Shown here piece by piece: positions 25,281 through 28,596 of a stretch of 50,161 bases of DNA; the first letter of the stretch is position 1; each line of letters opens with the position of its first letter. Under the pieces are notes generated by a model. That model ran no database searches and was not told the origin of the DNA. It was given only the letters and a program-made list of their open reading frames with translations. The stretch is from an uncultured Bacilli bacterium (GTDB lineage: Bacteria > Bacillota_I > Bacilli_A > RF39 > UBA660): the NCBI GenBank assembly GCA_944332725.1, contig CALVKO010000003.1, positions 1-50,161 of the forward strand, read 5' to 3'. The position numbers and the translations under genes are program-made.

Positions 25281-25303
25281 ATAGTCATTGTTGACTATTT
25301 TTT
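25281..25303. terminator. Bidirectional terminator between tRNA-Met and the ferritin-like gene
   Basis: ATAGTCA / TGACTAT around TTGT, with T6 on the plus strand and a T-rich run on the minus strand. The stop codon of the minus-strand gene is inside the stem. Confidence 0.8.
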
Positions 25304-25764
25304 TCATATAAATCTTTAAATATTTTTAAATGAATTTCTTCATCAATAATAATTCTTTTTAATAATTCTTTAATATATTTGTCATCTATTACTTTAATTA
25401 AATTATTATAATTTTTAATTGCTAATGTTTCTGCCTCAATATTTATTTTTAATATATCTTTTAAATTATTATTGTAATTAACATAATTAGTAGTCCAGGG
25501 AATATTATTTACTTTATATTCTGGATTTAGACCCAATAATTTGATTGTTTTGGCTAATAATTCTAAATGTTTCATTTCAACTATAGCAATCTTTTCTAAA
25601 ATGTTACTTACTTCATCATCTAAAATAAATGATTGATACATATATAAATGTGTTGCAGTATCTTCACTTACTAATCCCGCATAAGGATATGATAATAATC
25701 TTGCATATTCAATATTTTCTTTTTCAACTTTAATATCAGGATATGGTAAATTTGATTTATACAT
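25285..25764 (-). CDS. Ferritin-like diiron-type protein
   Basis: 159 residues, a four-helix-bundle protein of the rubrerythrin/ferritin-like class. Metal-ligand patterns are E in GLVSEDTATHLYMYQS (about residue 33), ExxH in VEMKHLELL (about 66), E in IEAETLAIKNY (about 110) and ExxH in DEEIHLKIF (about 142). This arrangement is typical of small ferritin-like proteins common in spore-forming Firmicutes and related to the CotJC/manganese-catalase type; I cannot choose between iron storage, peroxide removal or a spore role. AGGTG is well spaced from the ATG. It is transcribed divergently from the aminopeptidase. Confidence 0.75.
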   Translation of the reverse strand: MYKSNLPYPDIKVEKENIEYARLLSYPYAGLVSEDTATHLYMYQSFILDDEVSNILEKIAIVEMKHLELLAKTIKLLGLNPEYKVNNIPWTTNYVNYNNNLKDILKINIEAETLAIKNYNNLIKVIDDKYIKELLKRIIIDEEIHLKIFKDLYEKNSQQ

Positions 25765-25847
25765 TAATAATCACCTAATTAATTATATTAAAAAAAAATA
25801 ATTAAAATGTATCATTTTGGGATATAATAAATATGGAGAGTGATAAA

Positions 25848-27008
25848 ATGCAAGAAAAATATGCAGAATTGTTATTAAAAAGATGTCTAAATATATCTAA
25901 TCAACCTTTATTAATATCATGTCCAATTGAAGTTTATGACTTTGTAAGGGTATTAGTTAAAAAAGCTTATGAAATTGGTGTCGAGGATATTTATATTGAT
26001 TTTGAAGATGAAGAGTTAAAAAAATTGCAATTAAAAAATTTAAGTAAAGAGCAATTAAAAAATAGTAATTTTTTTAATAAAAGGATATTTGATGAATATG
26101 CCAAAAAGGATGCTTGTTTTTTAATGCTTTATGCTTATGAAGATTTTAGTGGTATAGATAATGATAAATTGGATTATAGTGCGAAATTAGTAAGAGAAAC
26201 TAAACCAATTTATAAAGAAAGACAGTTAAAAAATGAGATAGTTTGGTGTATTGCTTCGGTAGTAACTAAGACTTGGGCTGACAAATTATTTCCTAATGAA
26301 GAAGATAATATCAATAAATTATGGAATATAATTTATAAAATGTGTTTAATTGATAAAGAAAATCCTATCCTAGAATGGGATAATAAAATCAATTTGAATA
26401 GTCAAAAATGTGAATATATGAATAATAAACAATATAAAAAATTGACATTTAAAAATAATTTAGGGACTAATTTAACAATAGAACTTCCTAAAAATCATAT
26501 TTGGGCAGGAGGAAATACTATTATAAATGGAATAGAAACGATTGCTAATATGCCAACGGAAGAAATATTCACATCACCTTATAAATATGGTGTAAATGGA
26601 ATTGTTTATAGTTCTAAACCATTAGTATATAATGGTAGTTTAATTGAAGATTTTTATTTGGAATTTAAGGATGGTGAAGTTATAAATTTTGATGCTAAAG
26701 TAGGCAAAGAAACATTAAGACAAATAATAGAATATGATGAAAATTCTAAATATTTAGGTGAAGTTGCATTAGTTGATTATGATTCACCAATATCTAGATC
26801 TAATTTAGTTTTTTATGAAACTTTATATGATGAAAATGCTGCTTGTCATTTAGCACTAGGATCAAGTTATTTAGAATGCATTAAAGAACCTGATTTTAAT
26901 ATAGTTAATAAAAGTAATACTCATGTTGATTTTATGATAGGAACTTCTGATTTAGAAGTTTATGCTGATGATGAATTAATTATGAAAGATGGTAATTTTA
27001 TAAAATAA
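25848..27008 (+). CDS. M29-family aminopeptidase (PepS/AmpS-like)
   Basis: 386-residue cytoplasmic thermophilic-type metallo-aminopeptidase. The metal ligands of the family are visible: E in NMPTEEIFTSP (about residue 235), E in LGEVALVDYDSPI (about 303), H in NAACHLALG (about 330), and H and D in NTHVDFMIGTSDLEV (about 360). It releases N-terminal residues from peptides. The ATG at 25848 is chosen over ATG 25833 because GGAGAG is between the two. It is followed by the hairpin that carries the sigG ribosome binding site. Confidence 0.9.
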   Translation: MQEKYAELLLKRCLNISNQPLLISCPIEVYDFVRVLVKKAYEIGVEDIYIDFEDEELKKLQLKNLSKEQLKNSNFFNKRIFDEYAKKDACFLMLYAYEDFSGIDNDKLDYSAKLVRETKPIYKERQLKNEIVWCIASVVTKTWADKLFPNEEDNINKLWNIIYKMCLIDKENPILEWDNKINLNSQKCEYMNNKQYKKLTFKNNLGTNLTIELPKNHIWAGGNTIINGIETIANMPTEEIFTSPYKYGVNGIVYSSKPLVYNGSLIEDFYLEFKDGEVINFDAKVGKETLRQIIEYDENSKYLGEVALVDYDSPISRSNLVFYETLYDENAACHLALGSSYLECIKEPDFNIVNKSNTHVDFMIGTSDLEVYADDELIMKDGNFIK

Positions 27009-27019
27009 TTGTATTAAAT

Positions 27020-27060
27020 ATCTCTTTTTATATCATAATTGATATGAAAGGAGATTTTTT
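27020..27060 (+). promoter_or_regulatory. Hairpin hiding the sigG ribosome binding site, also terminator-like
   Basis: ATCTCTTTTTATATCA (27020-27035) pairs over its whole 16 bases (two G-U) with TGATATGAAAGGAGAT (27040-27055), loop TAAT. The 3' arm contains the SD AAAGGAGAT, and a run of six T (27055-27060) reaches the sigG ATG. As DNA this is an intrinsic terminator for the aminopeptidase gene; as RNA it would hide the sigG ribosome binding site in readthrough transcripts. Confidence 0.8.
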
Positions 27061-27834
27061 ATGGCACGTCATAGAGTAGAGATATGTGGCGTGAATACTG
27101 CGAATATTAAAGTTTTATGTAATGAAGAAATGATTGAATTATTTAAAAAATATCAAAATGGTGATAAGTCTGCTAAAGACGAATTAATTAATGGTAATTT
27201 AAAGTTAGTTTTATCTATTTTAAGAAAGTATAACAATCGAACAGATAATTTAGATGATTTATTTCAAATTGGTTGTGTTGGATTAATTAAGGCAATTGAT
27301 AATTTTGATTTGTCTCATGAAGTTAAGTTTTCAACATATGCCGTTCCGATGATATTAGGTGAAATTAAAAGATATTTAAGGGATAATAGTTCATTAAGAG
27401 TTACTAGAAATTTAAAAGATATAGCTTATAAAGGTTTAAAAGCAAAAGAAGAGTTAACTAATAAATTAAATAGAGAACCATCAATGAAGGAAATAGCTGA
27501 TGTTTTAGAATTAAATGAATTAGAAGTTATACAGGCTTTTGAAGCGGTTAAAGATGCGGTAAGTATGTCCGAACCTATTTATAGTGATGGTGGTGATACT
27601 ATCTATTTAGAAGAACAAATTGCTGATAAAAAGGATAAAATAGGGCAGGATATGAGTATTATGTTAAAAGAAGCTTTAAACAAACTAAAAGATAAAGAAA
27701 AATATATAATTTATAAAAGGTATTTTGAAGGAATTACGCAAATGGAACTATCTGAAGAAATTGGGATATCTCAAGCACAGATATCAAGAATAGAAAAAAA
27801 TTGTTTAGATAATATGAAAAAAATATTAAAATAA
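27061..27834 (+). CDS. sigG: Forespore-specific sigma factor SigG
   Basis: 257 residues, SigF/SigB/SigG family. The start RHRVEICGVNTANI is the SigG-specific leader (VEICGVDTSKL in Bacillus), followed by LDDLFQIGCVGLIKAIDNFDLSHEVKFSTYAVPMILGEIKRYLRDN (region 2) and the C-terminal ISQAQISRIEK helix-turn-helix (about residue 240). It directs late forespore genes for DNA protection and germination. The ATG lies right after the hairpin and T-run. ylmC follows immediately as in Bacillus; spoIIGA-sigE, normally upstream, is not. Confidence 0.95.
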   Translation: MARHRVEICGVNTANIKVLCNEEMIELFKKYQNGDKSAKDELINGNLKLVLSILRKYNNRTDNLDDLFQIGCVGLIKAIDNFDLSHEVKFSTYAVPMILGEIKRYLRDNSSLRVTRNLKDIAYKGLKAKEELTNKLNREPSMKEIADVLELNELEVIQAFEAVKDAVSMSEPIYSDGGDTIYLEEQIADKKDKIGQDMSIMLKEALNKLKDKEKYIIYKRYFEGITQMELSEEIGISQAQISRIEKNCLDNMKKILK

Positions 27835-27858
27835 TCATAAATTTTAATAGGTGAAATT

Positions 27859-28080
27859 ATGCGGTTAAGTGAATTACAATCAAAAAATATAATAACTACT
27901 GAAGGTAAATTAATTGGTAATATTGTAGATGTAATAATTGAAAATGGAACTGTTAAATGTTTAATAGTTGAAAAAACAAAATTTTTAATTTCAATGTTTA
28001 CTTCAAAAAATGAAGAAGAAATTAAGTGGAGTCAAATAAAAACTATCGGTGATGATGCAATTATTGTAAGTTGTCAATAA
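27859..28080 (+). CDS. ylmC: YlmC/YmxH-family PRC-barrel protein
   Basis: 73-residue PRC-barrel protein. The family start MRLSELQSKNIITTEGKLIGNIVDVII and the WSQIKTIGDDAIIV ending are visible. In Bacillus ylmC (also called ymxH) sits directly after sigG; the sigG-ylmC pairing here is the same, 25 bases apart with AGGTGA. Function is not settled; it is linked to sporulation and often to SigG/SigE control. No membrane span. Confidence 0.85.
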   Translation: MRLSELQSKNIITTEGKLIGNIVDVIIENGTVKCLIVEKTKFLISMFTSKNEEEIKWSQIKTIGDDAIIVSCQ

Positions 28081-28106
28081 ATTGGTAAATTATTCCAATT
28101 TTATTG
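28079..28106 (+). terminator. Terminator after ylmC
   Basis: AAATTGG / CCAATTT with a nine-base loop, overlapping the ylmC stop. The TTGACA (28104-28109) of the next promoter (with TATACT at 28128-28133, 18-base spacer) begins within it. Confidence 0.6.
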
Positions 28107-28167
28107 ACACTTATTTTTTTTGTGTGATATACTTAAAATCCCCCCTAAAAAAAGAAAGGAAAATTTT

Positions 28168-28596
28168 ATGTTTGAAAAAATACCTTTAAATGATATTTAT
28201 GTAGCTGATTTTGTTGATGAAACTTTAGAATTTGTCTATGGTGGTATATATAAATCGACAACTATTATTCATCATTTTGATATAAAAAAAGAAAAAAGCA
28301 TATTTATTTGGATGGCAGATCAAGATGGAAAATTTGCAGGATATTTGAATTTATTTGACAATAAAATATATAAGCCAATTACTACATCTTTATATGATTA
28401 TGAAGAAGTATTTGATTGTCCAAGTATAGATGTTGGAAATACTAATGATGGATATATTAATTTTGAACCACTATCTAATTTTAATTCTAAATACATAAAA
28501 CCATTTATGTCAATTAGATTAGCAAAGAAAGCAGTTAATGATATAAATAAGCAAAGAGAAAAAGAAAAAATTAAATCATTAATTTTTAAGAACTAG
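28168..28596 (+). CDS. Unknown small soluble protein
   Basis: 142-residue protein that I do not recognise. No signal peptide or membrane segment; it has mixed beta-like stretches (TTIIHHFDI, SIFIWMADQDGKFAGYLNLFDNKIYKPI) and a lysine-rich helical C-terminus. The ATG at 28168 has AAAGGA upstream; an ATG at 28120 lies on the -10 box and has none. It has its own promoter (28104-28133) and terminator (28595-28636), so it is monocistronic, next to RNase J2. Confidence 0.6.
   Translation: MFEKIPLNDIYVADFVDETLEFVYGGIYKSTTIIHHFDIKKEKSIFIWMADQDGKFAGYLNLFDNKIYKPITTSLYDYEEVFDCPSIDVGNTNDGYINFEPLSNFNSKYIKPFMSIRLAKKAVNDINKQREKEKIKSLIFKN

Follow-up and report, generated by a model that had tools for sequence, protein, structure and literature searches.

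The forespore sigma factor gene sigG in the window (the whole 50,161-nt stretch of DNA analysed here, from an uncultured Bacilli bacterium) is preceded by a hairpin that is very probably a combined terminator and Shine-Dalgarno (SD) trap against read-through, built into the promoter of the gene. As DNA, the element would be a sigma-F/sigma-G promoter with its -10 flanked by the two arms of an inverted repeat. In RNA made by polymerase coming through from the upstream gene, the repeat would fold into a hairpin followed by U's; part of the read-through transcripts would then terminate at the start codon, and the remainder would carry the SD locked in the stem. Forespore transcripts made with sigma-F or sigma-G would instead begin inside the 3' arm, without the 5' arm, and could be freely translated. 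Sigma-G activates its own gene, and the hairpin would thus keep stray transcription, in growing cells or in the mother cell, from igniting this loop.

The sigG gene (27061..27834, + strand) has the NCBIfam sigG models as its best matches, at 368.8 bits, just under the curated cut-off of 372. Its 3' neighbour is a ylmC-like PRC-barrel gene, itself a sporulation gene (27859..28080, +; TIGR02888 above cut-off, PF05239). The upstream unit in the window is a co-directional gene for an M29 family aminopeptidase (25833..27008, +; Pfam PF02073, E 1.1e-125) and not spoIIGA-sigE, in agreement with the original prediction of a setting behind an aminopeptidase rather than spoIIG. The aminopeptidase stop codon lies 1 nt 5' of the predicted -35 of sigG, and a search for a separate terminator between the two found none; this gene is the likely source of read-through into sigG. 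Beyond the M29 gene lies a rubrerythrin/ferritin-like gene (25285-25764, -), and a further terminator-like hairpin is located between ylmC and the next gene (28139-28160, -).

The hairpin comprises 16 continuous pairs at 27020-27055, two of them G-U, and its stem is A+T-rich, with three G-C pairs. The 5' arm (ATCTCTTTTTATATCA; 27020-27035, +), identified by folding and covariation, falls within the 18-bp promoter spacer and 5' of the predicted start. A TAAT loop (27036-27039, +) connects it to the 3' arm (TGATATGAAAGGAGAT; 27040-27055, +), identified by folding, which contains the SD AAAGGAG (27047-27053, +). A T6 run (27055-27060, +), the first T of which is paired, touches the ATG at 27061. 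Folding reproduced exactly the 16-bp stem with two G-U pairs and the complete sigG SD in its 3' arm that had been proposed from inspection, and the terminator-like tail meeting the start codon was recovered independently by a terminator scan of 25600-28200, in which the hairpin is among 2 matches (0.4 expected in shuffles). The element has the hairpin and then T-run of an intrinsic terminator. Folded on its own, 27016-27060 has a minimum free energy of -18.4 kcal/mol (z -7.2), and 0/200 shuffled sequences are equally stable.

To place this structure in its genomic background, the free energy required to free the SD in RNA entering from upstream (the opening cost) was computed for all usable leaders across 783 kb of the assembly. 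The sigG leader, at 13.4 kcal/mol, ranks first among 679 gene leaders, for which the next value is 10.8, the 99th percentile 7.6, and the median 1.7 kcal/mol. The absence of an equally strong leader among these 679 argues against the hairpin being no more than a terminator for the upstream gene in a short intergenic gap, with the SD in the stem by accident, a reading that is considered unlikely. The second strongest SD-hiding leader of the genome (L380:8925, -) shares its contig and strand with a sigF-like sigma factor gene.

The original prediction saw no clear sigma-F promoter in front of sigG; however, TGTATT-N18-CATAATT (27010-27040), which matches a family-conserved pattern of the sigma-F/sigma-G type, runs through the hairpin. 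The predicted -35 (TGTATT; 27010-27015, +) deviates from the family pattern TGWATA at its last base, and the predicted -10 (CATAATT; 27034-27040, +) occupies the top of the stem and the loop. In the leaders of 18 genomes from the genus and of 108 family genera, TGWATA-N18-CAWWATA is nearly invariant before sigG: this applies to the core columns of the -35, with and without a hairpin, and to the C, A and central A of the -10 in the family. The spacer is 18 bp long in 132/161 leaders, even though the scorer favoured 17 bp. Promoter scores of at least 9.5 were reached by 79% of the 108 family sigG leaders, compared with 3% of shuffled sequences and 3% of other gene leaders, a measure of uniformity rather than an independent prediction, since the pattern was drawn from the leaders that it scored. 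The pattern is equally strong in sigG leaders without a hairpin.

In B. subtilis, the consensus for sigma-F and sigma-G consists of a GHATR-like -35, a spacer of about 18 bp and a CATWHTA-like -10, and the sigG pattern fits it; we infer from the sequence that sigma-F or sigma-G would use this promoter. When the SASP genes of the genus, which are expected sigma-G targets, were checked for the sigG motif, no clear -35 was present, and their -10 (CATAATA or CATGATA) was found just before the SD, at a similarly short distance. In these SASP genes (L250-L279) the CATAATA/CATGATA-like -10 is only ~7 nt 5' of the SD, and very short leaders may therefore be usual for sigma-G genes here. A SASP match was also sought in the window's own, incomplete genome, and none was found.

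Because the -10 forms the hairpin loop, transcription is predicted to start within the 3' arm, at the SD (27045-27047, +; within ~2 nt, judged by the typical spacing from a -10), giving a native leader of ~15 nt. Without the 5' arm, native sigG RNA should not form the hairpin, and the SD, which is fully paired in read-through RNA, would be free. In the window, the opening cost is 13.4 kcal/mol for read-through RNA versus 0.0 kcal/mol for the predicted native RNA; the corresponding medians are 13.4 versus 0.6 kcal/mol in the genus and 9.5 versus 0.2 kcal/mol in the family. It had been proposed that sigG would need its own forespore transcript or a way to open the stem, and that transcripts starting inside it would count against the idea. 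However, the predicted native RNA has no stem to open, which makes an opener unnecessary. A start inside the stem is better read as the mechanism, as it would leave read-through RNA blocked and native RNA not.

The stem is conserved among relatives. When hairpin leaders were anchored on the promoter and SD, 82% of pairs formed in one register, compared with at most 66% in the others tried. The arms also covary, as seen in the comparison called for by the original prediction: a leader's own arms form 13.07 of 16 pairs, whereas exchanging arms among genomes leaves 12.25 +/- 0.12 (maximum 12.61, with none of 1000 swaps reaching the own arms). Similarly, 39 genera picked by context and not by hairpin gave 11.95 pairs versus 11.21 +/- 0.17 swapped (maximum 11.87). 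In a separate alignment (A1), which omitted seven context-selected rows with unalignable stems and added the window, changes on both sides affected 33 cells (18.8 +/- 3.2 after shuffling), and sliding the register lowered the covariation score from 0.252 to 0.146 or less; the count of pairs showing a two-sided change (8 versus 6.7) was not exceptional. The arm-swap test dropped no rows and is the fairer of the two, since alignability of the stem partly decided which rows entered A1.

A hairpin that serves as a guard against read-through is expected only where transcription can enter from upstream. Leaders were assigned to contexts by a rule (nearest upstream ORF, its strand, and a separate terminator before the -35) that was coded before the contexts were computed, with upstream genes called mechanically. 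The orientation half of the rule could not be seen beforehand, whereas the terminator half is less independent because it was prompted by T-runs already noticed in leaders. With one genome per genus, an opening cost of at least 6 kcal/mol was found in 60/66 exposed, 3/17 divergent and 10/23 terminator-separated leaders. The difference between exposed and divergent leaders (Fisher p 8e-9) holds with stricter ORF filters, and a composition-corrected z of at least 3 was reached by 91%, 18% and 22% of the three groups, respectively. Within the genus, the hairpin is present in 16/16 co-directional versus 0/2 divergent cases (p 0.0065, unadjusted for kinship, with the two divergent species, which may have lost the hairpin or never had it, possibly reflecting one event). 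In one divergent species (L011), the gene adjoining sigG, in divergent orientation, is the relative of the rubrerythrin/ferritin-like gene found beyond the aminopeptidase in the window, and this leader has a weak hairpin.

The sigG tree requires at least 31 changes of context and 29 of the hairpin. Of the 11 pairs that are phylogenetically independent and lie on supported branches, on average 6.3 were as predicted and 0.2 opposite (median p 0.03), and only ~11 contrasts are phylogenetically secure. About ten leaders violate the exposure rule. Six exposed genera are without the hairpin (L135, L155, L177, L194, L215 and L219), three divergent genera have a moderate one (L117, L146 and L212), and L010 and L015 have kept it despite distant upstream terminators.

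The genes upstream are diverse, with the upstream proteins of genus and family leaders forming 76 sequence clusters. A sigE-like sigma gene, which is the usual order, lies upstream of sigG in 12 other family genera; the two such genes that were checked match SigE models best, under cut-off. The hairpin is present in 9/11 exposed leaders with a sigE-like neighbour and in 64/68 with another neighbour (14 of these 68 being the M29 gene of the window's own genus). The hairpin travels with sigG, and not with the neighbouring gene. An accidental overlap of the SD with an upstream gene's terminator would account for the hairpin being largely absent where another terminator sits upstream, but not for its following sigG behind so many unrelated genes. 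Protection of sigG from read-through thus passes from an idea in one model organism to a comparative result, with the hairpin following some 30 context changes on the tree, and this points to steady selection for keeping stray transcription away from an autoactivating sigma factor. On balance we favour, with some reserve, the wider reading of the element as a portable off-switch, in which one DNA stretch would serve as promoter, terminator and ribosome-site lock, accompany sigG across dozens of unrelated neighbourhoods, and be kept or lost with exposure to upstream transcription.

The original prediction that one element combines termination with hiding of the SD is consistent with the distribution of T-runs. 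The whole SD lies in the stem, and a T-run of at least 4 follows the SD in 87% of hairpin leaders, compared with 14% of leaders without a hairpin and 8.5% of other genes, an association that speaks for termination as a role alongside SD hiding. The high frequency of T-runs would equally suit a hairpin that is only a terminator, but in 11/89 hairpin leaders the T-run is 2 or shorter and the SD is still trapped. As some hairpins have no T-run, SD locking appears to be the more constant of the two functions. Sequence cannot separate a terminator from an SD lock here, since the SD must fall in the 3' arm when the -10 is the loop; we infer that the sigG hairpin would both terminate transcription and block translation. 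Promoter, terminator and ribosome site can in this way occupy ~50 shared bases, a compact design that is testable in B. subtilis.

The precedent invoked in the original prediction, a B. subtilis leader hairpin limiting sigG translation from read-through, is supported by the literature: a hairpin of 20+ bp 5' of sigG was put forward as a block to translation of spoIIG read-through RNA (Masuda 1988, described in PMC5942855). RNA initiated at the sigG promoter is unable to fold into this long hairpin, and leaky sigG is harmful in growing B. subtilis cells (PMC5942855). Like it, the element described here precedes sigG and has the SD paired in read-through RNA; its 5' arm lies upstream of the predicted transcription start. 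The upstream units differ, being spoIIGA-sigE in B. subtilis and here the M29 aminopeptidase gene, with dozens of unrelated genes in the family. Relative to the B. subtilis hairpin as described, further apparent differences are the -10 as loop, the T-run tail, the predicted ~15-nt native leader, and a presence that follows exposure. What is new here is most likely a variant of the known read-through-blocking principle.

B. subtilis sigG also has a second, 5-bp hairpin at the RBS, which forms in native RNA and damps 2-4 fold; it has been tested by mutation and is predicted in other Bacilli (PMC5942855). Both structures pair the sigG SD with upstream bases, and the hairpin in the window might likewise damp native sigG translation. 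This is very unlikely, as the predicted native transcript is, unlike that of B. subtilis, without such a structure (its ~15-nt leader opens at ~0.2 kcal/mol), and the presence of a damper would not be expected to vary with the direction of the upstream gene. The element most likely works like the read-through hairpin and not like the 5-bp one. A leader switched by a ligand, protein or small RNA that opens the stem late in sporulation, a possibility raised for B. subtilis (PMC5942855), appears extremely improbable: there is no conserved loop besides the -10 box, an Rfam search of the sigG leader returned no family near its gathering score, and a switch would be superfluous if native RNA is without the stem.

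Comparable logic to that of a promoter-embedded trap against read-through is found in the phage T4 I-TevI leaders, in which RNA from upstream promoters has its SD hidden and late-promoter transcripts begin too far 3' to be able to form the hairpin (PMC2988022). In both cases, read-in RNA has a hidden SD and own-promoter RNA is free of the hairpin; however, the T4 case concerns homing endonucleases of a phage, which have T4 middle or late promoters, and there is no sign of common descent. With the same SD-pairing measure, Clostridia sigG leaders mostly show no excess pairing. In other Bacilli families, 14/24 sigG leaders have a z of at least 3 (counted from rows). Several of these other Bacilli families with the sigE-sigG order (L220-L249) have an anti-SD arm that abuts a CATACT- or CCAAACT-like -10.
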